A stretch of 22,823 nt of DNA, taken from Parvularia atlantis (lineage: Eukaryota; Opisthokonta; Rotosphaerida). Below the pieces are notes generated by a model. That model was not told where the DNA came from, made no database searches, and worked only from the letters and a program-made list of their open reading frames with translations. A program made the position numbers and the translations under genes. Positions within the stretch are counted from its first letter, which is position 1; the number at the start of each line of letters is the position of its first letter. The DNA lies in assembly GCA_943704415.1 (NCBI GenBank), contig CALSCO010001307.1, positions 1 through 22,823 of the forward strand, given 5' to 3'. This document shows, in pieces, positions 3,680-19,803 of the stretch.

Positions 3680-6600
3680 ATGGGACACAAGAAGAAGAAA
3701 GGCAAGCAAGCTGGACGGCAAGCTGCTGGGCCCAAGCCAGACGACGAGGCGGAAGACGCAGCCGCAGGTGCGGCAGGTCGGTGTCTGCCCGCGCTGCTTC
3801 GCAAACGTACGGCGCACATGCGCACAGGCGACGGAGGCTCGTCGGCGCAGATGACCTCGTCATCAGCAACTACGTCATCACCATCCACGCCGCAGTTGCC
3901 TTCGCAGGTGCCCTCCCACCCCTCGTCCGCAACACCGGAGCCTCCAACCGACCGTCTGGCCGAGTCTGCGCCCATGAAGGACGCGTTGAAGACTGCCACG
4001 TCGAACGCTTCGTCTGCAGGCTCAGCCTCAGCAATAACAGCACCGCGCAAAGTCACCGTGACGGGCAAGAAGCCCGTTCAAGAGCGGCCTTATGTCAAGC
4101 CGATATGCGTGCCGTTCGCTGACCTTTCGAGCCTGTCGCCTGCTGCGTCCACCTTGGCTGAGCGGGTGCAGCGCATCAACGGCCTGGAACTTGGATTGCA
4201 AGACACTGACGTCGCGCGAGTTCGAAAGTGGGTCGACGAGAACTACAGCGACGCAGACATTGAGCTGATTGAAGCAAGCGACCTGCACACAAGTTTAAAT
4301 CTTCCGCTTGGCAAGGCGAAGCGACTCGCAACAATACTTCGCGCAGCTGCACTTCCCACGGTTATTTCGCCCCAGGAGCGACTGTTCCGGGCACTGGTAC
4401 TCGAAGGCGATCGGGAGGAGAAGCACTACGTTGATTTCAAGGCCGCATTTGACTACGCGGGATCAGATAAAGAAAAGTTTCTGCAGGAAATCGCTGCATT
4501 GCACAATGCTGTGAGAGTCGGAGTTCCCGACTACCCTTCTGTTGATGGCATGCACAAGGCCGCGTACCTGATCATCGGGATCGCTAACAACGTAAACGCT
4601 GCGCATCCTGAGCTCGTAAATCAACTCGTTCTAGAGCCAGCGCCCAGGTCGCGTGACGATCAGCTGTTGCAGGAGCCTTTCAAACGTTTCTCGCCCGTTC
4701 CGATGGTGAACAAGTACATCATTCCCTGTGTGGGCAACAAGGGCGGCGAGCGCGTCACGGGCGTCTGCATTATGTTTGAAATTGTCATCGGACAACATCC
4801 GATTCTGCTGGATGGCAAGATTTTCGTTCGTGTGAACACGACTACCGTGCATGCACCTTCGATTTCTTCTCTGCCCAAGGAGTACGCTGACCCTCTGTAT
4901 GCAAAGTTTTCGGCGCTAGATGAGTCAGACCAAGCAATGGCGCGGTTGCGGCAACTGCCAGACTATGAGGCGGGACTTGCCTTGAAAATTCTGCTGCTCA
5001 GCAGCCATAGGGAAAGCTCAAACGATGCGGTGACGTTGATGGACCAGTTGATGGCCGTCAACTGGGACATCGTCGTGGATCTAGACCGAAACTCGAATGC
5101 GCCTGAGAGTGCGTGGAGACGAGTTGCCGACATTGTAAACCTGAGGCGCAATCTGCACGATGTCTCTATCGGCGAAGCGAAAGCACGCTTATTCGACCCG
5201 CCTCTCACTGATAGCAACGTGAAAGAATGCATCGCCGGCAAAGTACTCCTGTGGGTCAAAGGCTGCACTGGTGCAAATCGAGACGACTTCAAGTATTTTC
5301 CCGTGCAGGAGCTCATCTGCTCAGATATCTTTAACGTCTGTCCACCGCGGCCGATCATCATTGTAAGTATCGCATTGGCGCCAGAGCAATCGCGTATTAT
5401 CACCACGCTGGGCGAGGTCGTCAAGTGGATTCAGCAGCGCGACACGTTCGCCAACACGCACCCCCTCTACGTCGCTCGCTGCGCTCTGCCTGACGCAATA
5501 GGATCTAGTGCGAATATCGCGCAAGAGGAACGGATGTTTTCAGCTCCACTATTCACCATAACGTCCAACGTCTGCAATCTTCTGGGAGCCGTGCTTCCGC
5601 CGGATCACATCATGATGGCCAAGATCCGTATCCCTGCGCTCAATCGGAACGAGTGGCTTACGGTACTGGAGCCGGTGCATGCATCTCTTGGCGAGCCCGA
5701 AACCTCTGAGGCTGCAATAGAGCTTGAGCAGGCCGTGCGGTCATTCGGTGCTATACCAGCTCAGGCAAGTGAGGGAGAGGAGCCGGACGCCCGTATCCAA
5801 TTTGGGCGGTACATCGTCTCGTTCAGCAAGAAAAGCGTGGTCTTGTCGGGCGAAAAGCTGCTGTATTTGGACTTTTTGCGCGGCTCGACGCTGTCGTGGT
5901 CGTTGCTGCACGCCAGCAGTGATCCACGCAGCTACATCCACGAATTGTTTCGTCGAAGCGAGTTTGATCCGATTTGTAAGACCATCGGCGAGCTGCTGCG
6001 CCGTCCCGCTGAGAAATGGCTCGATCGTCCGACCGTGGTCTTATGCAGCCATGAAGCCTCGGCCGGCGCCTCGACTCTGGGACGCCAGCTGCTGAAGCAC
6101 TTCGCGGATGAGTTTCCCTGCTTTGTTGTGCGCGACACGTCCGATGTGACCGTCGATCAGCTTGCCCTCGCACAGCAGAAGTTTTTTGCCAACAAGCCGT
6201 TTCTTCTGATGCTAGACAACACGACAGGTCACAAGGCCGAAGAGTTTGACCGGAAGATGCATCACCAGCATCCTAGACGCGCGAAAGCGGTCATCATTGC
6301 GATCGCTCGGACGAATGTGCGGCAGGATGTAGCACACCGCAAACCAGACGCGAAGCTTGTGCAGCTCACAACTAAGGACGCAGAGAGCCTGCAATTGCAG
6401 GTGGAGCGGCAAATTGCAAGCATTTTGGCTCCAGTACAGAAGGCGGACTTTGACATCAAGATGCCTTTCTTTTATGGGCTCGTATATTTTGGGGTTTACT
6501 ACAGCGACGAGCGCATTCGCAATCATGTCTCAAATTGCGTAGCTGCTCTGTGGCAAGCGCCTGATGACGACCAGCAGTCTATCGCAGGTATGCTCTGTGT

Positions 6601-8878
6601 CGCGGTCCTTTTGAAGCTCCATGTGCCGAGTAATATCGCGAGTGGCCTCTTGAGGTCGTATGCAGAGGAGCTGGTCAGCCGGACATACCTCAACACGCGA
6701 CCTGATCGATCTGTGCTTGCGTCTGCGTTGCTTAATCTGCTGCTTGTACGTCGCAGCGGCGCAAATATGATCTTCTCCTTGCCAAACGAAAAGACCGCGC
6801 TGACGCTGCAAGAGGAACTACAGAAGCGTATGTCTTTGCCGCCAGTCGTTTTTGGGCTCGTCTGGCTTCTGACCCGTCTCTTTAATTTTGAAAATGGGCC
6901 GCTCGATACGCTGGAGTATCGTTCTGCTGCTGTGGGTGCGAGCCGAGGTCCGAACGTCACGGTCACCTCTGATGCGTCGGCTGGAACGCAACTACTCAAC
7001 GTGATCATGGAGAAGGCTCTGCCCGCCGTGCACGAACTTCTCGAAAGTGGTCATCTGCCAGCTGCTCTCGCTGCCATGACGGCGCCAGACCTTAAACCAC
7101 TGCTGACTGCTCTGTTCTCGCGGCACGGTGAAGGGGAGGCGAACGATGTGGCGCCTGCGAGCGAGACGGATGACGATATTTTCGACTTAAGTCCTGCCCA
7201 AAGCGCAAATCTGAGGCCCAACGCTGTTACCAGCAACCGCAGATCACTGGCAGGCTTTTCGGAGTTCGTCGACTATCTGCAGCGTGAGTCAGTGGTGGGC
7301 CCTGCGTACACGAAAGCTCTGTTTGCCCTCGCGGCTGTGGCGACCGGTGACGTGCACGTTTTGTCGCATTACAGTCGATTTGTTGTCCTGTCTGCAATCG
7401 CTGCTGAGGACGTTGACGGCATGCTGCGTGGCCTCGATATCATACGGAGGACCCTAACATCTCCCCATGTTCGAGACGCACCGCCGCGGCTGTGCCATCT
7501 CGGTGGAGCTCTTGCTCTTAGAGTGGTCAAGTCCTTCTTATATATGCCCGTGGACAAGATGCAGCTGGACCTGAGTGCCGGCATCCTCGACAACGTGCGT
7601 CGTTGCGCCGATCTTGCAGAGGAACTGCTGCTGAAGATCAACGAGCACCCGCGAGGCCTGGACAACGAAGGGTACAGCGTCGCCGTCCTACGCCAGGTAT
7701 GGCGCGTCGATTTGCGCGTCGCGCTGCACAAGTTTGCCCGCAAGTGGAGCTGGGCGAACGGAATGTCTCCAGATAAGTTTCTAAGGCAAGAAGCAAAGTC
7801 GTCTCTTTTCATGAAAGACGACGTCCTCGTTAGGGAAGGTCTGCAGCTGCTGGATCATGCAGAGGAGCTCAACGGCCTTTCTTCAGACAGCTTGTCATCT
7901 CGCCGCCAGCAGACCATTTTCGATCGGCAGGTGGACGTCCTACGCCTCCTCAGTCCCGACCCTGAGAGGCATCTCTCGACTCAACAGCTTGCTGAGCATC
8001 TAAAGGGGCAGTTCCGCAACACGTCGCTTGCCGATGTCTTGCCTGCTCTTGCAGGTCATCTTCTTTTCATGGCGCATGGAAACACGCGCGGCCCCCGCTG
8101 GCGCCCGTTTTCAGGCGCGGACATTTCTGCTGATGAGCTGCTCGACACGTTCGCCACTTTGCGAGCGGCCGCCAACAAGGCCGCTAACGCGCGTGTTCGA
8201 CTGCCCTTGGTCGCTGTTCGCGATCTGCTGCATGTGATCGCGGAGATGGGCTGTCGTGGTATCGGAATGGACGAAAAGCACTTGCAGGCACTCGAAATAC
8301 TGAATCTTCTGTCGCACGTCAAGACATCTGTTGTCAATGAGCACCGCCCAACGACTGATCCGGTCTTGTGGGTACTCTACGGCGCTGTCGCATTCTCGTT
8401 GCTAAACGGCCTTGGAGCCGCGCCCGAAGCGGCGCGTCTGACGAAAATGGCCATGGGTAATCTCAAGGAGGCCAACGAGAAGCTGCGCCAACTGGCGGGC
8501 CAGAGCCCGCTCGTGCACGATGCGGCAAACACGACGGCGTTTCTCTTCGTCGCCCAGGGCCGCGCTGTGCACTGCATTCGCGACAAGAGCTACATCCGCG
8601 CGACGTTGGACGAAAACTCATATGAGGACGCCAGCGTCTTCTGGTCTTACTTGGCCTTTGACCGACTGTGGCGCATACCCGGCCAACTCCGCAACAACGG
8701 GCGTGAGGGTGTAGTTCGCTTTGGCCAGGATGAGCTGACAGCCCGAGTGACGCACCTGCATGGCGTCCCGGGCCGTAATGATATGAGCGTGGAGTTCTAC
8801 CCTGTCATGAGCAACGAGGGCCTGGTCCTCAGTGTGGCCCGTGTGGTGGGCGTGACGATTGGCCGCAGCGGCACATGA
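3680..8878 (+). CDS. SAMD9-like: SAMD9-like protein: SAM-like, AlbA_2, SIR2-like, STAND NTPase, helical repeats, OB
   Basis: One open frame of 1732 codons ending in TGA. The N-terminus is Lys-rich (MGHKKKKGK) and low-complexity to about residue 135. A SAM-like segment lies near 170-225 (RKWVDENY, SDLHTSLNLPLGKAKRL). An AlbA_2/Schlafen-like domain spans about 230-395 (EEKHYVDFKAAF, AYLIIGIANN, FVRVNTTT at 382). The SIR2-like region includes NWDIVVDLDRNS (W462). The family signature LRGSTLSW (734-740) precedes the NTPase: P-loop-like HEASAGASTLGRQLL (from 791) without the classical Lys, and hydrophobic-D strand KPFLLMLDNTT (D846). Then come PFFYGLVYFGVYY (929 on), a long helical TPR-like region, and a C-terminal OB-like module (about 1665-1732). 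This order and these motifs match SAMD9/SAMD9L from memory. That family consists of cytoplasmic STAND-like antiviral and growth-restricting proteins. Composition is lower in GC than all neighbours. It has at most one 5' intron. Any nucleic-acid target or effector activity here is inference. Confidence 0.88.
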   Translation: MGHKKKKGKQAGRQAAGPKPDDEAEDAAAGAAGRCLPALLRKRTAHMRTGDGGSSAQMTSSSATTSSPSTPQLPSQVPSHPSSATPEPPTDRLAESAPMKDALKTATSNASSAGSASAITAPRKVTVTGKKPVQERPYVKPICVPFADLSSLSPAASTLAERVQRINGLELGLQDTDVARVRKWVDENYSDADIELIEASDLHTSLNLPLGKAKRLATILRAAALPTVISPQERLFRALVLEGDREEKHYVDFKAAFDYAGSDKEKFLQEIAALHNAVRVGVPDYPSVDGMHKAAYLIIGIANNVNAAHPELVNQLVLEPAPRSRDDQLLQEPFKRFSPVPMVNKYIIPCVGNKGGERVTGVCIMFEIVIGQHPILLDGKIFVRVNTTTVHAPSISSLPKEYADPLYAKFSALDESDQAMARLRQLPDYEAGLALKILLLSSHRESSNDAVTLMDQLMAVNWDIVVDLDRNSNAPESAWRRVADIVNLRRNLHDVSIGEAKARLFDPPLTDSNVKECIAGKVLLWVKGCTGANRDDFKYFPVQELICSDIFNVCPPRPIIIVSIALAPEQSRIITTLGEVVKWIQQRDTFANTHPLYVARCALPDAIGSSANIAQEERMFSAPLFTITSNVCNLLGAVLPPDHIMMAKIRIPALNRNEWLTVLEPVHASLGEPETSEAAIELEQAVRSFGAIPAQASEGEEPDARIQFGRYIVSFSKKSVVLSGEKLLYLDFLRGSTLSWSLLHASSDPRSYIHELFRRSEFDPICKTIGELLRRPAEKWLDRPTVVLCSHEASAGASTLGRQLLKHFADEFPCFVVRDTSDVTVDQLALAQQKFFANKPFLLMLDNTTGHKAEEFDRKMHHQHPRRAKAVIIAIARTNVRQDVAHRKPDAKLVQLTTKDAESLQLQVERQIASILAPVQKADFDIKMPFFYGLVYFGVYYSDERIRNHVSNCVAALWQAPDDDQQSIAGMLCVAVLLKLHVPSNIASGLLRSYAEELVSRTYLNTRPDRSVLASALLNLLLVRRSGANMIFSLPNEKTALTLQEELQKRMSLPPVVFGLVWLLTRLFNFENGPLDTLEYRSAAVGASRGPNVTVTSDASAGTQLLNVIMEKALPAVHELLESGHLPAALAAMTAPDLKPLLTALFSRHGEGEANDVAPASETDDDIFDLSPAQSANLRPNAVTSNRRSLAGFSEFVDYLQRESVVGPAYTKALFALAAVATGDVHVLSHYSRFVVLSAIAAEDVDGMLRGLDIIRRTLTSPHVRDAPPRLCHLGGALALRVVKSFLYMPVDKMQLDLSAGILDNVRRCADLAEELLLKINEHPRGLDNEGYSVAVLRQVWRVDLRVALHKFARKWSWANGMSPDKFLRQEAKSSLFMKDDVLVREGLQLLDHAEELNGLSSDSLSSRRQQTIFDRQVDVLRLLSPDPERHLSTQQLAEHLKGQFRNTSLADVLPALAGHLLFMAHGNTRGPRWRPFSGADISADELLDTFATLRAAANKAANARVRLPLVAVRDLLHVIAEMGCRGIGMDEKHLQALEILNLLSHVKTSVVNEHRPTTDPVLWVLYGAVAFSLLNGLGAAPEAARLTKMAMGNLKEANEKLRQLAGQSPLVHDAANTTAFLFVAQGRAVHCIRDKSYIRATLDENSYEDASVFWSYLAFDRLWRIPGQLRNNGREGVVRFGQDELTARVTHLHGVPGRNDMSVEFYPVMSNEGLVLSVARVVGVTIGRSGT
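3777..3827 (+). other. Possible 51-base in-frame 5' intron in the SAMD9-like gene
   Basis: Within the low-complexity N-terminus a GTCGGTG donor (after G of a Gly codon) and a CGCACAG acceptor bracket 51 bases, a typical intron size here and a multiple of three. Removing it deletes an out-of-character Arg/Leu/His segment (RCLPALLRKRTAHMRTG) and joins GAAG to DGGSSAQ, continuing the Gly/Ala/Ser-rich style. No strong CTGAC branch site is present, so this is only a candidate. Confidence 0.35.
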
Positions 8879-9042: not shown

Positions 9043-12000
9043 TCAGGAGACGTTGCCGCGCCGACCCACGCCGCCCTGCCAGTGTGGAGGTGCGCGCGCC
9101 GGCATCGGCGGCAGCATCTGTGCGACGCGAGCGTGAGCTGGGGGCCGTGCGGGTCGTGCGGCAGCAAGGCGCACCACGGGGTCCTTGGGCGGCGGCGGCG
9201 GCGGCTTGTCGTAGATCAGGTCGCCCGAGGGCGACTTCTTCATCTTGCTCGAGAGCGTCGAGGGAAAAAGCTCGCTCGCGGGCACGGGTGCCGACTGCTG
9301 CACGAGCACGGGGTCGGGCGGAAGCTCCTTATCCGGCGCAGTTGCTCTGTCGTCGTTGTCGTTAGTGGGAGAGCGGCTCTGTGCGCTGCGTGGCGCGGCA
9401 CGCACTTGCTCGCGGGGCCCTCGTGCTCCTCGTCGTCCTCCTCCTCGTCCTCCTCCGGCACAGTCGACTCGGCCAAGCGCGACGGCGTCGAGCGCATCGG
9501 CCGCGACGCCGCGCTCATCGGCGGCGGACCGACCACGCGCGGCGCGCTCGGCTTCTCGCCGGGCGGCGAGGGCGGGTTCATCTGCGAGCGGGCGGCGTCA
9601 AAGCGGTGTGCACATTTGTGCTGCGGACGCACCTCGGCCACGGGCGACGACGACGCCGGCTTGAGCGGCGCGGGCAGCGAGTTGTTGAACGGGATTTTTT
9701 TCTGCTTGCGCCTCAGCAGGTGTGCGCACGGTGCAGTGCAGTAGCGCACCTCGCGGATGCCGCAGTTGCCGACTAGCTGCGACAGCGAGTGGTTGGACTG
9801 CACTGCCGCAACGACGTCCTGCGCTGTGATGTGCTGCGCGCCCGCCTGCTTGGCCGGGAGCACACATAGCTGCAGCGCGTCCTGCGCACACGGCCGTCAG
9901 CCTCACTCGCCGGCGCGGCCGCAAAAAAGCGCGACGCACAAAGCCCACAAAGGCCACCAGCTGCGCTAGCCGTGTGCTGCTTGGCCCGTCAAACGTCAGC
10001 GGCAGCTTGTGCCCGCCGCACACGGCCATGAGCACGCTCTCGATGTCCATCGACTTGCGCGCGAGCTCTTGTGCGTCCTGCGCATGCCCGATCAGCTCGC
10101 GTGCACGCTGCCCTCAGCGCTGTCGTTGCACACCTTGACGAGGTCGGCTGCGGTAATGCCGAGGCTCTTGTGCTTCAGGTCGTGCTTCTCGGAAAAGTAC
10201 GCGAGCGTGACGGGCACGAGGATCTTGGCCGCGGCCTCAACGTCGCTGCGCGCGGGTTGCATGAGCTGGCGAAAACGTGTGCGCAGCGTGATGCAACGCC
10301 ACACCTGATGTGGATCACGTGCTCCTTCAGCAGTGGCGTCGCGGACGGCGGCGGCGGGGCGGGCGCGGCAGGTGCGGCCCCGCTGGCAAGTGTCGGTGGC
10401 GGGGGTGCCTGCGCGCCAAGCAGTAAGCGCATGCGGGCGACAAGGGCCGGCATGCGCGCGCCACCTGCATCGCGATCGTTCTCCGCTGGTACGTCTTGAT
10501 CGCGTCGCGCACGAGCGCCTCCCAGATGACGCCGAGCCATGCCGCGAGCAGCTCGACGCTGTCGCTGGCCACCTCCATCCCGTCCACCGACTTACATCCG
10601 GCCTGGAGGTACTTGAGCATGTCGCCTGTGTGCGCTGTCAGGCTGGTCATGCGCGTGCGCGGTGCTCGTTTGCGTGCCCTTGAAGTCGCTGTCGCTGCTG
10701 CTGCCGCGCCGCACGGGCGCATTGTTGCCAAACACCGAGCGCTCGGGCAGGATGGACCCACGCCGGCTGTTGGTGCGTGCGATGGCGGCTGGCCGGGCGC
10801 GTCAGCTGTACCGCGAAAGCGGGCGGGTGCGCACGAACCGATGGATGGATCCAGGATCGGGCTGTCGCCGGCCTTCTTCGCACGACTGAGCATCTCTGCC
10901 CGCTGCTCCTGCGACAGCTGCGGCATGCTCGCGCTCGCTGCGGCCAGTCACGGGTGAGCGAGCGAGCCGGGCGCTCACACCGCGCGGTGGCAGCAGCACG
11001 CACAAGGCGCGTCGTTGACGTCGACGCTGACGGAGCGCAGCGCGTCGCCGTCCTCCTCGCCCGCGACGTCGTCCTCCTGCATCGCGGTCTCGCTCAGGTC
11101 GCCCGTGGAGCCCGACTTTTTGATGTTGCGCGACATCGTAGCTGCGGCGGCGCGTCAGCCGCAGGGCAGCAACGGCAGCTCAACGTCGCGCATGTACCGG
11201 AGGTGATGGTGGCCGCGGCGATGAGCTTCTTCTTGTTGCCGGTCGAGATCGTCAGGGCCTTGAAGCCCTTGAAGCGCAGCGAGTCCTGCGAGTGCGCGCG
11301 CGCGGCGACAGCCGATCAGCGATCGTGTTCGGCTGCCCGCCGTTCTGCGGCCGCGCCTTCTTCTGCGGCGCAACGGCCGTGCGAAGGCGATCCATGCGGT
11401 CGAGCACGTACTGCCGCGCGCACGCTTGCTGTCAGCCGACGAGTGCAAGCGCACAACTCGCAAGCGCGCGCACCTCGGGCACGGGCTTCTCCTCGATGCG
11501 CGGCATGACCGTCTGCAGGAACGCGTACAAGTGGTTGACGGCGAGCTCCATGTACGACGGGTCGAGCGAGCGGTTGCGACGTCCGTCGTCCTTCGCGGGC
11601 ACCTGTACGCATGCTTAGGACCCGGTTGTGCACGCGCCACATGCTGCGTGCCGCGCACACACCTGCGAGATGAACACGAGAAAGTTCTTCATGTTGGGCA
11701 GCGACGTGCGGATAAAGTCGTTGAACGGGAGCATATACTCCTCGCGGTGGAACGCGCCATTCGCGAGGCTCGTGAGGACCTGCGGGCGGCCGGTGCGTCA
11801 GCGGGGCGCGTGCGGTGTGCGCGAGCGAGCGCCGCGTGCCTTGCCGATGAGCAGGAGCGAGCCCGTCTTGTGCGTCGGCACGGACCCGGGCGGGAAGAGG
11901 GCGTACTTCTCGGGCGCCATAACAGCTGGCGCGACGCTTCAGCCCGCAACAGCATCTCGCGGTGTGCTGGCGCGCACCAGGCACGATGAAGCGTAGGAAC

Positions 12001-13444
12001 ATGAACGCGCTGAGCACCTTGAGCGCCGGCGGCAGCGCCGTCTCGTCGTTCATGCCCGTGAGCGCCTCAGGCCCAAGCGCGTGCTCCACGCTTGTGCGGA
12101 TAAACAGGCACAGGCGCCGGAACGAGAGCGGGATGAGGTCGCGGTGGCTCTGCAGTGCGGCCATGATGCTGTCGCAGCACAGCTGCAGCTGCTTGACGCT
12201 GTGCGCGATCGCCTCGGGGCTGGACTCCTTGGCCGGGTTGACCTCCAGCGCGGCCGGGTCCTGCGTGCGGCGGTGCTGAGCGCGCCGAGCGCCGCCGCCG
12301 CCGCCGCCGCCAGCGCCGCTGCCACAAGGCCGCACGCACCTCCAGGATCGCCTTGAGTGGCGCAGTGAAGGTCGCGCGCAGGAACGCCTCGCCCTCGATC
12401 TGAACAAAGGCCATGAGCATCATCACGGGCATGCTGCGTGCGCGCGCGCGCGTGCGCCGTGAGTGCACGATGTGGCGATGGCACAGCGCGCATGCGGCGC
12501 GCACGCGTTGTCGCGCAGCAGGTTGACGGTCGGCGTGACGCCCTGGCCTGGCCGCATCGCGAGGGTTGTCAGGCACAGGAGCTCGTCGAGTGCGGCACAG
12601 CGGCGCACCGCGCACAGAGTCGAGCTTGAGCTTGATCACGCGCTTGAGGAACTCCTCGGCGCGCTGCTGCGACTGCAGGAGCACGACGATGGCCATGGCC
12701 ACGCTCGACACGTTCTCGGTCGTCGGGCTGAGCTTGATGATCTGCCGGCGTGCATCGCATCAGCCCGCGATCACTGTCACGGATCGCGCCGCCCGCGTGC
12801 AACGCGCGCCGGCCGCACCTCGGACAGCAGCTCGAGGTCGGGCGTGAAGACGAGGTTGAGCATGGTCTGGCGCACGTCCTCCTGCGCGCCGTCCCTCGGG
12901 TGAGCCCCCGAAATAGCCACGAAACGCCGTTGCACGTTGGGGGAAAGGCCCGACAACACCCGTGCGTCCACCTCCCGCACCGAGCACACGGCGCGCGCGC
13001 GGCTCGGGAGGACGACAGCGGCAGCGGTGCACGACATGGGAGCGAGAGGGAGCAGAAAAGAGGCGACGGCGCACGCGCTCAGCAGCGCGCTGTCGGGAAC
13101 GGCGCGACCCTCCGCCCTTTGCCCGCGCCGCATCCGCCGTGCCTCGGCGCGCGCGCACATGTCCCGGCCACACACACGCGCGCGCGCGACCGAGCGCCAG
13201 GCGCGCAGCACGGGGCCGCGTCACGGCCCCACACGGCCCGCACAAACCCGCGAGCGCGTGAAGGACGCGTCCGCACCTTCTTCTTCGGCCGGCCCTTGCG
13301 GTCCAGGCCCGACGGCGGCAGGTGCGCGTCGTCCGTGTGCGCGCGTAGGACGCTCGCGACGATGTCGAGCTGCGCCGCGGGCTGCGCCACCGCCGCGACC
13401 GGCGCCGGCGACGACGCCGCAGAGCTGCTGCTGCTTGTGCTCAT
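9043..13444 (-). CDS. RasGAP-domain protein, about 20 exons, about 955 aa
   Basis: Likely exons (minus): 13277-13444, 12819-12881, 12616-12741, 12505-12542, 12340-12433, 11978-12260, 11840-11925, 11663-11779, 11474-11602, 11410 to about 11357-11375, 11198-11285, 11004-11141, 10835-10937, 10678-10766, 10465-10625, 10319-10408, 10134-10265, 9940-10077, 9406-9881, 9043-9346. The phases close except at the tenth donor, which is unclear. The RasGAP domain spans about residues 85-325: RAEEFLKRVIKLKLDS, the finger segment NLLRDN (Arg129), LPPALKVLSAFMFLRFIVPA, SLLLIGKVLTSLANGAF, EEYMLPFNDFIRTSLPN. It should speed GTP hydrolysis by Ras-type GTPases at membranes. No PH or C2 domain is visible. The C-terminal 550 or so residues hold a Ser-rich linker (RRGSSSDSDFKGD), a helical region of unknown type (DMLKYLQAG to AACKILV-like segments ending at ITAADLVK), an acidic run and a Pro-rich tail. 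Two introns use GC donors. The start could instead be 13037. Confidence 0.85.
10626..10677 (-). other. GC-AG intron in the RasGAP gene (52 bases)
   Basis: On the minus strand the exon ends in GACTTCAAGG and the intron starts GCACGC. It ends CTGACAGCGCACACAG, with a CTGAC branch motif 16 bases from its end. The next exon continues GCGACATGCTCAAG, giving SDFKGDMLKYL. There is no nearby GT that restores the frame: the two closest GT donors give the wrong phase. The alternative is a donor about 80 bases further upstream, which would make an unusually long intron. Confidence 0.7.
11780..11839 (-). other. GC-AG intron inside the RasGAP domain (60 bases)
   Basis: The exon ends ATCGGCAAG and the intron starts GCACGC. 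A CTGACGC branch motif precedes the CCGCAG end. Splicing joins LLLIGK to VLTSLANG, which reproduces the conserved RasGAP stretch corresponding to LIAKVLQNLAN. Reading through meets a stop codon. No GT occurs between that conserved block and the branch motif, so a GC donor is required. Confidence 0.82.
12882..13276 (-). promoter_or_regulatory. Long first intron of RasGAP or alternative promoter with ATG at 13037
   Basis: If exon 13277-13444 belongs to the gene, this 395-base intron is five to eight times longer than any other here. Inside it, a pyrimidine-rich block (CCTCTTTTCTGCTCCCTCT, minus strand) directly precedes an ATG at 13037. Its frame runs without interruption for 52 codons into exon 12819-12881 (MSCTAAAVVLPSRARA...). 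Two readings fit: a 5' exon encoding MSTSSSSSAA...GRPKKK spliced over a long intron, or an internal start, or both as alternative forms. Confidence 0.5.
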
Positions 13445-15512: not shown

Positions 15513-18500
15513 TCACGCGTCGCCCGCGCTGGCCTTGAGCGTCGCGAGGCTCGCGCTCACATCCTCGATCGTCGCGACCTTGGGTGGCTCGCCGGCCGCG
15601 GCGTCGGCCTGCTGCTCGCGCTGCTGCTGCGCCTGCTGGTGCTCGCGTTGCTGCTCGCGCTGCTGCTGCGCCTGCTCGCGCTGCTGCTGCTCGCGCTGCT
15701 GGTGCTGCATGTGCTCGCGCAGGAGCTGCTCGCGGTGCTGCTGGTCCTTCTGCTCACGCCCGGCAGGCGCGCCATCGTCAGTGCGCGGCCGAGGCGCAGC
15801 ACAGGCGCATGGCGTGCCTTCGTGCTCCAGACGATCTTGAAGTCGTCCAGGCTCTTGAAGAGCACGAGCAGCTGCTTGAGGTCCGCCAGCACGTCGATCT
15901 GGTTCTGCGCCTTGTCTGGACGGTAGAACAGATACGCCCAAAACTGACGCGCACGCGTTACGGCGTGCCCGCTGGCGGCGCGGGGGCGCACACCTTCTCG
16001 AGGCCGTAGAGGTGGCCCTCGGCGTAGTCGCTCAGCGTCATCTCCTGGAACTCGCGGAAGATCTCCGGGCGGAACTTGACCTCGAGGCCGTACGAGAAGA
16101 AGCGGAAGACGCACTCGAGGCCGTAGCTGAGAGCGCGCGCGCGCGCGCGGCACTGTCAGCCGCCGCGGTGTCAAACTGGCGCGACGCACCGGTGGCCAAC
16201 CGCTGAGTCCTCGAGCGCGAGCTTCTTGAACTCGAGGTAGATGCGCCGGTTGAAGTGCTCGCGCAGAAAGATGGACCAGAAGCGGAACAGCGTGTTCATC
16301 TCGCGCGACTTGCCGAAACCGAGGCGCTTGCGCTCTGCACGCACAGCCAGTCAGCGGTCAGCGAGAAGGCGGCGCGCGCGCGGGGCCTGCGCACGCACCC
16401 TTGAGCGCGTTCGCGCGGTACTTGTAGTACTTGTGCTGCACAAAGTCGTTCTCCTTGAGCAGGTCGCGCGACGGGTGTTGCAGCGCGCCGAAGGACGACG
16501 ACGGTGTCGAGTCGACCGACGACGGGCCCTTCCACGACGACGACGGCGACGGCGCTGGGCTAACGGTCGGGTCGTACGATCGGCCCTCGGTGTACGCCTT
16601 GGAACTGGTGCGGCGGCGGCGGCGGCGGCGGCGGCGATCGCGCGTGAGCAAGTTCTGCATTGCACAGAACAGAAGTCGACAGCGCACCCGAGCAGCCAGC
16701 CGACGTGGCTCTCTTGCGGCGGGTTCTGGCTGTAGGCCGTCTTCTGCTTGCGCGGGATCTCGAGCTGCGCGTACGTGAGCACCGTTGCCCGCTGCTCATC
16801 GCTCGTGCGCGCGCACCGAGTTGCCCTCGTTCACCTTCGAGCGCTCTTTGGTCACGGGGAAGAAGCGCTTCGCATTGCTGTCGTGCTGGATCTGCCGCTC
16901 CAGTGCGTTCAGCACAGGGGGGCAAACGATCGGCGTGCGAGGCGCACCGACGCCTGCGCGTTGATCTCGGCCGCGGCCGCAGCCGCGCTCGCCGCCGCAG
17001 ACGGCTGGAAGATGCCACCTGTGTAGTGGTCGCCGTTGACCGCCCCGGACACGACGCGTAGCCGTGCATGAGCGCACCAGCCGTGAAGCTACCCGAGAGC
17101 GACAGCGGCGGGACATGCGCCGAGCCGCTCGCGTTCGGCGCCACCCGCGGCGACGCGTTCGGCGTGCTGCGCGCGCGAGTGGTGAGCGCGCCAGTTGCCG
17201 CATGGCCGCGCACACGCACGTCGCCGGGGAGTTGCTGGCCGAGTTGGCGTCCTTGCGGCCGGTGTCGATCGCCTGCTGGCGGAGCTGTTCGAGCGCCTCG
17301 CTGCGGCGCACGATGCGTGTCAGCTTTGCGCGGCACTCGCAGGCGAAGCGACGACCTGACGCTGGCCGGCTTGGGTTCGGTCGTGCTGCCGCTCTTCGCC
17401 TCGCGCGTGAAGCGCTTCTGCAGGCGCTGCTCAAACTCGAGCAGACCCTCATTGATGATAGAGCCGACGTCGTCTGCAACAGGGGTCCGCCGTGCTCAGC
17501 GTACACGCAAAACGGGCGTGCACACGCAGGCGCACCGGCGATGACCGGGCGGCCGTTGGCCGTGCGACCGGACGAGGCGTGGCTCGGGTTCTTTTGCGTA
17601 ACGATGAGCAGCTTGGCCACAAAGTCGTCGTCGACCTCGGACGTGCTGTGCGCACGCTCCGTGAGACTCACCGCCAGACGCATCGTGAGACGCACTCTTC
17701 CGCCAGATGCGCGCCCATCAGCTCGGGCGCGTGCAGCTTCGCGTCATCCAGGTCCTCGTCAAACTTGAAGTCAAAGTCGCCGTCCTCCGCCTGAGCTTCA
17801 CGTTAAGCACCACGAGCGCGACCCAGCGGCGGTCAAGCGCGCCCCGCACCTTGTCGGTCGCCGGCGCGGGCTTGCGCGTCGCCGGGGCTGGGCGGCCGGC
17901 GCTGGAGGCGCTGCTGGCGCTGTTGCGACGCTGTTGTGCACCGCTGTGCCACTCGTTCGCGACCGTCGCCGCGCCCGCCCTGGCATCGCCCGTCGCGCGC
18001 GACAGGCCCTCGTTCACGCCCGCGCCCTTGGCCAGCCCCGGGCCCGTCTTCAGGCCGAGCTTCTTCTCGACCTCGCGCACATCCGTCGCACTCGGCGCCG
18101 GCGCCGGCTTCTCGGCCGAGCCAGCACTCGCACTCGCGCTCGCAGCCTTCAGGTTCGGCATCGGCGGCTGCGCGTGCGTGGGCGCGCGTGTCAGCTCGTG
18201 TGTTGGCGCCGCACAACGGGCCGCCGCGCACTAGTTGCATCAGCCACTTGTCCCAGTCGACGCGCTTGCGGATTCGGTCGCCCGACATCTCGACCTCGGT
18301 GCTGTCCTTTACAGCCTGCGCAAAAAAAAAAAAACCTCAGCAACAGAGTGCGACAACCACCAGCGCACGGGGCACAACGCACATCCTTGATCTGCTCGAC
18401 GTCCGACGTGAGCGCGCGCACGCGGTTGAAATTGGCCAGCACGGCTAGGTGCACGTAGCCCTGCGTGTCCATCTGCGGCAGCCGCAGCGTAAGCTCGACA

Positions 18501-19803
18501 GCTCTGCGCACGCGCGTTGTAGGACATGCCAACTTGCGGATGTACACGTCGCGCACGAGGTTCTCGATGCTGAAGTAGTACTCGCTGCACCGATCACGCG
18601 TCAGACCCGGTCGCGGACTGTGCCGGCACGCACATCTGGCTGCGGATGTACACGCGCAGCATCTCCGCGTCCATGGCCACCGGTGCGGGGCCGTACGGGC
18701 CTGCGCAGAGGGGCGGTTCAGCGTGCCGGACGGCGGGCGACGAGCCTGGAGCGCACCCAGTTCGCCCTGGTACACCTGAGCAGTCCGCTGCGGGCGTGCA
18801 AAGCCCGGCTCGTGGCGCGCCTGCTGCGGCGCGACCGGCGGACGCTGCTGTGACGCGTTCGAGTCGCCGTCGAAGACCGGGCGCGAGTACTGCTGCTGGT
18901 GCTGCTGGTGATGGGCGCGGCGCTGGCCCGTGTGGTGACCCTTGGGCACGTGCGTCTGCGCCGGTGCTTGCGTCTGCGCCGGTGCTTGCGACTGCGGGGC
19001 CGCACGCGGCGGCAGGTGATTGGGTGCGCCGAAGGGCACGCCGACGACCGGGAGAGGCGCCGCAGGCGGGTGCATCGGCGCCGGAGCAGTCGCCGCCGGG
19101 CTGAAGCCGCCGATAAACGTCGGCACGGCAACACCGGGCACAGCCATCCCGTTGGGCGCGCGCAGCATGCCCGGCGCGACCGGGCCGCCAAACGATGCCG
19201 GCCAGCCGCCCTGGCCGAAGCCGCCCGCGCCAGCGCTGTTGTAAGCCTCGAACGGCACCCACTTGCTGTTGTTGTTGTTGTTGCCGTGATGCGGCGGGTG
19301 GCCTCCGCCTGCGCCTCCACCGCCGCCGCCTGGTCGCGCAGGTCAAAGCTGCCCGCAAGGAGCGCTCCACCGTCGCGCACCGCGCTTCTTGTGGCCGCTG
19401 CCGTGGGCCGTGTGCCGTGGCGCCTGCGCAGGACGCTGCTGCTGCTGCTGTGGCTGCGCAGCCGGCACCGCCTGCGCAGGTGTCGTGGGGGCCGCGGGCG
19501 TGGTCGCAGCGATCGGCACAGGCGCGCTGGCAGGCGTCGGCGTCGACGGCACCGTCGCAGTCACGAGCACGGGTGGGCCCTTGCTCCACGCGGACGGCAC
19601 GGCTGCGCGGTGCGGCGCGTCCGTGAGCGCAGAGCGCACGCCACAGGACAATACGCACCGCTCTTGGCCGGGCCGGACGGCGCGGGCGCCATGTTTTTGG
19701 ACGACGCGATGCCCGCCGACAGCAGGCTGCGCGGCGCGGCAGGGACGGCGACGGCGGGCGACGGCGGCTTGGCCATCGACGGTGTGGTGTCCTTAGACGT
19801 CAT
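15513..19803 (-). CDS. LARP1: LARP1, La-related protein with DM15 cap-binding repeats (20 exons)
   Basis: Exons (minus): 19659-19803, 19381-19602, 18757-19329, 18634-18700, 18383-18584, 18232-18315, 17850-18167, 17696-17790, 17536-17645, 17356-17473, 17220-17300, 17078-17166, 16948-17018, 16817-16891, 16688-16764, 16399-16604, 16190-16334, 15994-16126, 15818-15943 (or 15803-15943), 15513-15749. That is about 1057 aa (human 1096). LARP1 binds the cap and first bases of TOP mRNAs and poly(A)/PABP, controlled by TORC1. Order: Pro/Gln/Asn-rich N-terminus with SKWVPFE; La motif about 327-430 ([34 protein letters not shown]); FDEDLDD and LLIVTQ linker; EIPRKQKT and [14 protein letters not shown]; three DM15 repeats about 825-945 ([66 protein letters not shown]). 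It ends with a Gln/Arg/Glu-rich tail encoded by CTG/GCG repeats (15590-15740). All introns are 49-83 bases. The La motif holds a 20-residue insertion. Confidence 0.96.
15750..15817 (-). other. LARP1 last intron with competing GC and GT donors
   Basis: After the DM15 region the frame must change before the Gln-rich tail (KDQQHREQ). The acceptor after CGTGAGCAG (15750) is clear, with a CTGACG branch motif. The donor may be GCACGC directly after an AAG codon (15817) or GTGCTGCGC 15 bases later (15802). Both keep frame and differ by five residues (ARHAP). Confidence 0.5.
16611..16636 (+). repeat. CGG trinucleotide run inside a LARP1 intron
   Basis: Eight CGG units plus two bases lie in the intron 16605-16687, just before its acceptor. 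On the transcribed (minus) strand they are CCG/GCC units that take the place of the polypyrimidine tract. A similar seven-unit run lies at 12291-12311 in a RasGAP intron. Confidence 0.85.
18473..18532 (-). other. 60-base in-frame insertion in the LARP1 La motif
   Basis: The conserved La-motif run RDVYIRK should continue directly into MDTQGYV (human RDFFLRRKMD). Here 60 bases (20 codons, LACPTTRV... to LRLPQ) stand between them without a stop. The segment starts TTGGCATG after AAG and ends GCTGCCGCAG. It has the length, a CTTAC branch-like word and the acceptor of a local intron, but no GT or GC at the expected donor. Confidence 0.75.

Follow-up and report, generated by a model that had tools for sequence, protein, structure and literature searches.

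The window (the whole stretch of DNA that was analysed, 22,823 nucleotides) contains an open reading frame that probably encodes a divergent, STAND-like member of the SAMD9 family. The host is probably a unicellular opisthokont carrying at least two such copies, and the mechanism of the protein is for the most part a proposed one. The window makes up the entire contig C327 in a genome of 16.25 Mb and 616 contigs. The features are as follows.

3680–8878, + strand: SAMD9-like open reading frame, a single uninterrupted frame of 1732 aa with no apparent intron.
3680–4141, + strand: low-complexity N-terminal region rich in Ser, Ala and Pro, from direct reading; Pfam found no SAM domain.
4418–4855, + strand: AlbA_2 (Schlafen-type nuclease) domain, residues 247–392, from Pfam PF04326 and alignment with the paralog and bacterial AlbA_2.
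4907–5839, + strand: SIR2-like region, about residues 410–720, from marginal HMM scores, alignment and the fold search of a low-confidence model.
5873–6655, + strand: SAMD9-type P-loop NTPase with flanks, residues 732–992, from an HMM of eight bacterial relatives.
5873–5899, + strand: FLRGSTLSW box, residues 732–740 (RGSTLSW at 734–740), from alignment.
6050–6085, + strand: P-loop HEASAGASTLGR, residues 791–802, with the Walker lysine changed to Ala and the upstream His retained.
6200–6220, + strand: Walker-B-like FLLMLDN, residues 841–847, aligned to IICVVDD of the paralog.
6470–6490, + strand: FYGLVYF, residues 931–937, from the HMM match and alignments.
6677–8704, + strand: C-terminal half, predicted helical (model pLDDT 41), homology undetectable, HMM test negative.
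8705–8875, + strand: C-terminal segment with two predicted strands; the proposed OB module is unconfirmed.
About 2176–2712, − strand: Ofd1/Tpa1-type 2OG-Fe(II) oxygenase, a eukaryotic neighbour.
11316–12407, − strand: probable RasGAP, below the cut-off (24.3 versus 28.3 bits).
About 18194–19258, − strand: La-domain protein, a eukaryotic neighbour.
Contig C479, L006:3450–8888, + strand: second SAMD9-family gene (the paralog), spliced, with seven exons and six introns by model, about 1696 aa.

The core architecture of the SAMD9 family, as given in the available part of PMC5445408, consists of AlbA_2, SIR2-like, NTPase, TPR array and OB fold. The original prediction assigned this layout to the window protein. 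Kinship from AlbA_2 to the NTPase was borne out by the NTPase HMM, the AlbA_2 domain, the paralog and the fold search, with the SIR2-like part marginal, but the helical half and the OB fold were not recovered. The comparisons below show, at the level of sequence, that the AlbA_2 and NTPase parts are related to the SAMD9 family. The outcome named as a refutation of the prediction, no profile match from AlbA_2 to the NTPase, did not occur.

The NTPase carries the strongest signal. A DNA pattern for the P-loop, designed after that of the paralog, was used to scan contigs of bacterial genomes and returned nine stretches, eight of SAMD9 type and one chance match (L028, dropped); selection by this pattern favours the P-loop and not its flanks. 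An HMM of the eight bacterial proteins, with no sequence from the window's own genome, matched human SAMD9 structures in PDB at E=1.3e-34 over profile positions 67–895, so the eight are real SAMD9 relatives. With this HMM the window protein scored 43.2 bits (E=5.6e-13) and the paralog 68.5 bits (E=1.3e-20), and the top score of 1,000 shuffles was 2.2 bits (2.2–4.3 bits across the HMMs used). The match covers the FLRG..SW box, the lysine-less P-loop and FYGLVYF. The degenerate P-loop NTPase that had been proposed is therefore confirmed by this profile, and RGSTLSW before it and FYGLVYF after it are present at homologous places. In the accessible text of PMC5445408, the SAMD9 family is recognised by a P-loop that has lost the Walker lysine (GGT/S) and by a histidine conserved upstream of it. 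The window P-loop, HEASAGASTLGR, lacks the lysine and has the upstream His, with Ala where the family has Gly; it therefore agrees with the signature in kind but not letter for letter. The paralog P-loop, HEPGAGGTTLAR, fits the signature in full. Searches with the whole window protein gave no family at E≤10 in Pfam, PADLOC or NCBIfam, and phmmer against PDB gave no SAMD9 chain at E≤10. All 13 of the PDB matches from phmmer (E≤10) were acyl carrier proteins (best E=0.14), which were judged to be chance.

When residues 247–392 were scanned alone, Pfam SLFN_AlbA_2 matched over model positions 1–117 of 118 with 23.2 bits (E=1e-4), slightly below the cut-off of 25.3 bits. The corresponding segment of the paralog is above the cut-off (39 bits, E=1.3e-9) and is similar to bacterial AlbA_2 (E=1.2e-10). 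An HMM of bacterial AlbA_2 did not separate the window protein from shuffles (5.0 bits versus 6.6 for the best shuffle). By alignment, E247, D252, K254 and E270 of the window protein fall on conserved AlbA_2 positions, and the paralog has no acidic residue at the position equivalent to E270. Human tRNase-SA makes use of E184, E196, E218 and D241 together with K198, K214 and R221, according to the portions available of PMC12331169 and PMC13245274. Searching PF04326 against the genome in six frames found nothing, because the AlbA_2 of the window protein is below the cut-off and that of the paralog is split across exons. Two profiles of bacterial and protist AlbA_2 domains, one of them joining paralog, window protein and bacteria, retrieved no human SAMD9 from PDB at E≤10. 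Their top PDB match was CbCash (9ylu; E=9.6e-4 and 8.8e-10), and in these profile searches the AlbA_2 of the paralog, the window protein and the bacterial SAMD9-type proteins was closer to CbCash than to human tRNase-SA.

For the SIR2-like region, homology appears marginal by sequence. An HMM of seven bacterial regions ranked the window protein first of 1,002 with a marginal E=0.036, and one of nine regions still ranked it first with a marginal E=0.16. The paralog was not significant with either (E=1.3 and 1.2). VNWDIVVDLD of the window protein aligned to INWSLVIDFN of a bacterial protein. An AlphaFold model of residues 225–1020 had low confidence (pLDDT 46). With this model, Foldseek placed human SAMD9 chains at ranks 1–5 of 1,136 (E=2.6e-11 to 2.7e-10), followed by p97 at rank 6 (E=9.1e-5), with low TM-scores (0.17–0.19). 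The fold search is support rather than independent proof, because the AlphaFold alignment contained SAMD9 relatives and the TM-scores were low. The structural comparison suggested by the original prediction thus ranks human SAMD9 first for residues 225–1020, but through a model of low confidence.

The AlphaFold model of the C-terminal half (pLDDT 41) consists largely of helices, and two strands lie close to its end. Its fold search returned generic helical repeats, with no SAMD9 among the 50 matches listed, and an HMM of bacterial C-terminal parts set neither the window protein nor the paralog apart from shuffles. Pfam gave no TPR match in the window protein. Because this half shows no detectable homology, the claim of a full-length SAMD9 relative is unsupported; a fast-evolving C-terminal sensor would fit such a lack. 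OB HMMs of four and five bacterial members did not list the window protein at E≤100 and gave the paralog no scored domain. The OB module, for which the model offers two strands only, is thus unproved. Pfam also found no SAM domain, either in residues 140–237 (0 families) or in the whole window protein. In the part of PMC5445408 that was available, the SAM domain belongs to vertebrate members only and is not needed for membership of the SAMD9 family.

The paralog is a second line of evidence. In blastp the window protein matched it with 48.1 bits (E=8e-9), 49 of 169 residues being identical (29%, in the NTPase), versus 28.5 bits for the best of 50 shuffles. Its NTPase exon alone found human SAMD9 in six of eight PDB matches (E=2.5e-4 to 1.7e-3), and the cyanobacterial protein L032 found the paralog in the host genome (E=3.9e-9) and missed the window gene. 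The two proteins have the same kind of Lys-rich start (MGHKKKKGK in the window protein, MGSKAKQRQRK in the paralog), AlbA_2, NTPase and GC-poor composition. They differ in that the paralog has six introns by model (49–68 bp) and a canonical GGTT P-loop, whereas the window copy has GAST and no apparent intron. Judged by its sequence, the paralog is more canonical than the window copy. The genome holds at least two SAMD9-like copies, and further copies may exist. A third locus (contig C556, E=0.079, internal stop) was judged spurious after it was read.

The EF1A gene of this genome (contig C464) contains PWFKGWKKLDKKGAEVKGVTLVEALD, and we take an EF1A insertion of about 12 residues to be an opisthokont marker. 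This suggests an opisthokont host, and EF1A together with the genome size makes a unicellular one probable. At another locus (L008, contig C351) there seems to be a gene for a TypA/BipA-like translational GTPase, which would be unusual for an opisthokont if confirmed. The nucleariid Parvularia atlantis has a genome of 19.24 Mb, 8.58 introns per gene and a mean intron of 60.67 bp, as reported in the available part of PMC9492541. The control for base composition was a set of 190 overlapping 1-kb windows, drawn from the flanks of the target and from 17 further loci of this genome (mean GC 0.690, sd 0.029, minimum 0.602). Together with EF1A, these values agree with the GC-rich, protist-like eukaryotic host that had been predicted. 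The control minimum lies in a GC-poor part (about 0–3000) of L053 (C360:1–6000), where retroelement integrase-like sequence was read by eye. Each of the nine overlapping 1-kb windows of the SAMD9-like frame (GC 0.538–0.587) was under the control minimum, as was each of the nine at the paralog locus (0.546–0.601). GC3 was 0.640 for the SAMD9-like frame versus 0.914 for the neighbouring frame at 239–1663. Foreign origin or escape from the GC drive of the genome would either of them explain these GC-poor islands.

Relatives were rare in the genomes that were surveyed with a profile that also included the window protein and the paralog. Four of 244 genomes from the phylum of L032 matched, one of them with a lysine-less SAMD9-type protein after reading; for the phylum of L030 the numbers were three of 247 and two. 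Two of these three lysine-less members were seeds, and the remaining matches were GKS/GKT STANDs and one AAA-type protein. L046, from the phylum of L030, is a full-length bacterial SAMD9-type protein of 1212 aa on the reverse strand, in which AlbA_2, SIR2-like, a GSGGSTVGRR P-loop, a helical region and a C terminus resembling OB were read; ST-VGR in this P-loop is similar to ST-LGR of the window protein. Scanning bacterial-genome contigs with the alignment of window protein and paralog gave 42 pattern matches, and three scans of viral contigs gave 33, 1 and 14; none was confirmed. Tblastn against plasmids found nothing with the window protein or the paralog, and with L032 it found one piece of a Leptospira plasmid covering 20% of the query.

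Given the GC-poor islands and a window copy with no apparent intron, horizontal acquisition is possible. Both genes would then have come from bacteria or another donor instead of descending from a pre-animal opisthokont SAMD9, and we give this account somewhat less than an even chance. Both genes have a GC of 54–60% against 69%, and the window frame shows no intron where the paralog needs six by model. Rarity in the sampled bacteria is as expected for a mobile defence gene, and the AlbA_2 of the paralog is bacterial-like while the joint AlbA_2 profile misses human SAMD9. However, the scans of plasmids, bacterial genomes and viral contigs confirmed no close relative, introns are present in the paralog, and low GC can also mark genes that are weakly selected or poor in recombination. 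With no more than 29% identity between their NTPases, the two copies must be old or separate. The other history, that SAMD9-type STAND RNases predate animals in unicellular opisthokonts and that this genome keeps two descendants, one with an AlbA_2 that still looks bacterial, is a tentative one that we think rather unlikely. If true, bacterial AlbA_2-STAND proteins and animal SAMD9 would be joined by a missing link, and a protist would have a defence in which one protein arrests translation.

Membership of the SAMD9 family, the reading we prefer under either history, has also to be weighed against membership of another nSTAND group. An AlbA_2 STAND of such a group could have lost its Walker lysine independently and resemble SAMD9 through the wider clade. 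RGSTLSW had been named as a specific SAMD9 signature, but FyxG precedes the P-loop in all three of the GKS/GKT STANDs compared (W in two of them), so the box is not SAMD9-specific. The best weak Pfam NTPase match, nSTAND_NTPase5 (E=0.012, 15.9 bits, cut-off 34), and the missing OB module fit such a group as well. True bacterial relatives are likewise under the nSTAND_NTPase5 cut-off (L032 29.4 bits, L030 31.3 bits). L043 (G022, from the survey of the L032 phylum) has a SIR2-like part by reading and a GKS-type STAND with an FYKG..W box before the P-loop, which suggests that SAMD9 NTPases originated inside a wider FyxG-STAND clade. In an HMM of the NTPase only, the paralog scored 84 bits, the human SAMD9 segment 66 bits and the window protein 43.8 bits, versus 28.0, 27 and 23 bits for the three GK-type STANDs and 12 bits for an AAA-type protein. 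Bacterial members that were left out in turn still scored 134–243 bits, and the window protein is therefore far out in the family. This and other later HMMs, in which L034 was swapped for its longer version L042, are not fully independent of the window protein, because L046, found by the survey whose profile included window protein and paralog, was added to them; the eight-protein HMM is free of such a link. The upstream His, the missing lysine, FYGLVYF and the preceding AlbA_2, which L032, L036 and L046 have as well, also argue for the SAMD9 family. In the NTPase phylogeny that had been called for (242 columns), the three GK-type STANDs stand apart (85/89) from a group of the window protein, the paralog, human SAMD9 and the bacterial members. 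The tree does not resolve the branching inside this group, either for window protein with paralog (83.5/43) or for human SAMD9. Taken with these results, membership of another nSTAND group is improbable.

It is quite improbable that the window copy is decaying or has lost its catalytic function, leaving the spliced gene on C479 as the working one: the window copy has diverged further (43 versus 68–84 bits), with GAST in place of GGTT and an AlbA_2 below the cut-off, but its frame of 1732 codons is intact, E247, D252, K254 and E270 are retained, and the paralog itself lacks the acidic residue equivalent to E270.

As a SAMD9-family protein, the window protein would have a nuclease activity, an RNA target, a sensing function and an antiviral role that are predicted by analogy. 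Human SAMD9 has a latent tRNase-SA that is activated on infection, and an autoinhibition model has been proposed for it, according to the available portions of PMC13245274 and PMC12331169. By this analogy the resting window protein may be autoinhibited. The helical, fast-evolving C-terminal half would sense a trigger, and the lysine-less P-loop domain might then bind nucleotide and switch or oligomerise instead of hydrolysing it fast. The N-terminal AlbA_2 nuclease would thereby be freed to cut tRNA or a related RNA, and this cutting would stop translation and growth.

SAMD9 and SAMD9L restrict viruses, and their overactivity causes human disease; mammalian SAMD9 blocks viruses by cutting transfer RNA. 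In the accessible parts of PMC5445408 and PMC13245274 the family is placed in animals and bacteria. Among the papers listed by searches of the open-licence PMC literature, none that mentions SAMD9 deals with protists judging by its title, and the sole co-mention with a choanoflagellate concerns progranulin. The present results suggest that the SAMD9 family is not limited to animals and bacteria. The relative outside animals that had been anticipated is probably present, in what is probably a unicellular opisthokont, but it is not the first, since bacterial relatives were already known from what is available of PMC5445408. Two copies in such a host offer a test of descent versus bacterial transfer. 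They also offer a simple eukaryotic system for a self-contained tRNase-STAND, its tRNase predicted by analogy, where interferon and adaptors would not come into play.

Compared with known systems, the window protein resembles vertebrate SAMD9/SAMD9L in the AlbA_2-like putative tRNase, a SIR2-like part that is marginal by sequence, the lysine-less P-loop NTPase with an upstream His and a long region predicted to be helical. In contrast to them, it has no detected SAM domain, it has GAST and not GGT/S, its C-terminal half and OB are unrecognisable, and its host is probably not an animal. The AlbA_2-bearing bacterial SAMD9-type proteins (L032 from Nostoc, L036 from a Cylindrospermum plasmid, and L046) have the same order of AlbA_2, SIR2-like (marginal in the window protein) and NTPase. 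They share the F-x-x-G..W box, the H-x2-[GS]-x-G-[GA]-[ST]-T P-loop and, behind the NTPase, an aligned motif of F[YF]xGL type, but the bacterial members that were read keep GG in the P-loop where the window protein has GA. The bacterial SAMD9-type profile also matches TPR and cold-shock chains in PDB, and in L030 a CSD match lies below the threshold. Avs and other nSTANDs have a logic of effector, NTPase and sensor similar to the one proposed here (for Avs, as described in the available part of PMC13245274), whereas the three GK-type STANDs have GK[ST] P-loops and reach 23–28 bits with the SAMD9-type HMM. Schlafens share the AlbA_2 (SLFN_AlbA_2) nuclease domain, and long Schlafens carry a helicase-like part; in contrast, the window protein carries a STAND NTPase whose P-loop is of SAMD9 type.
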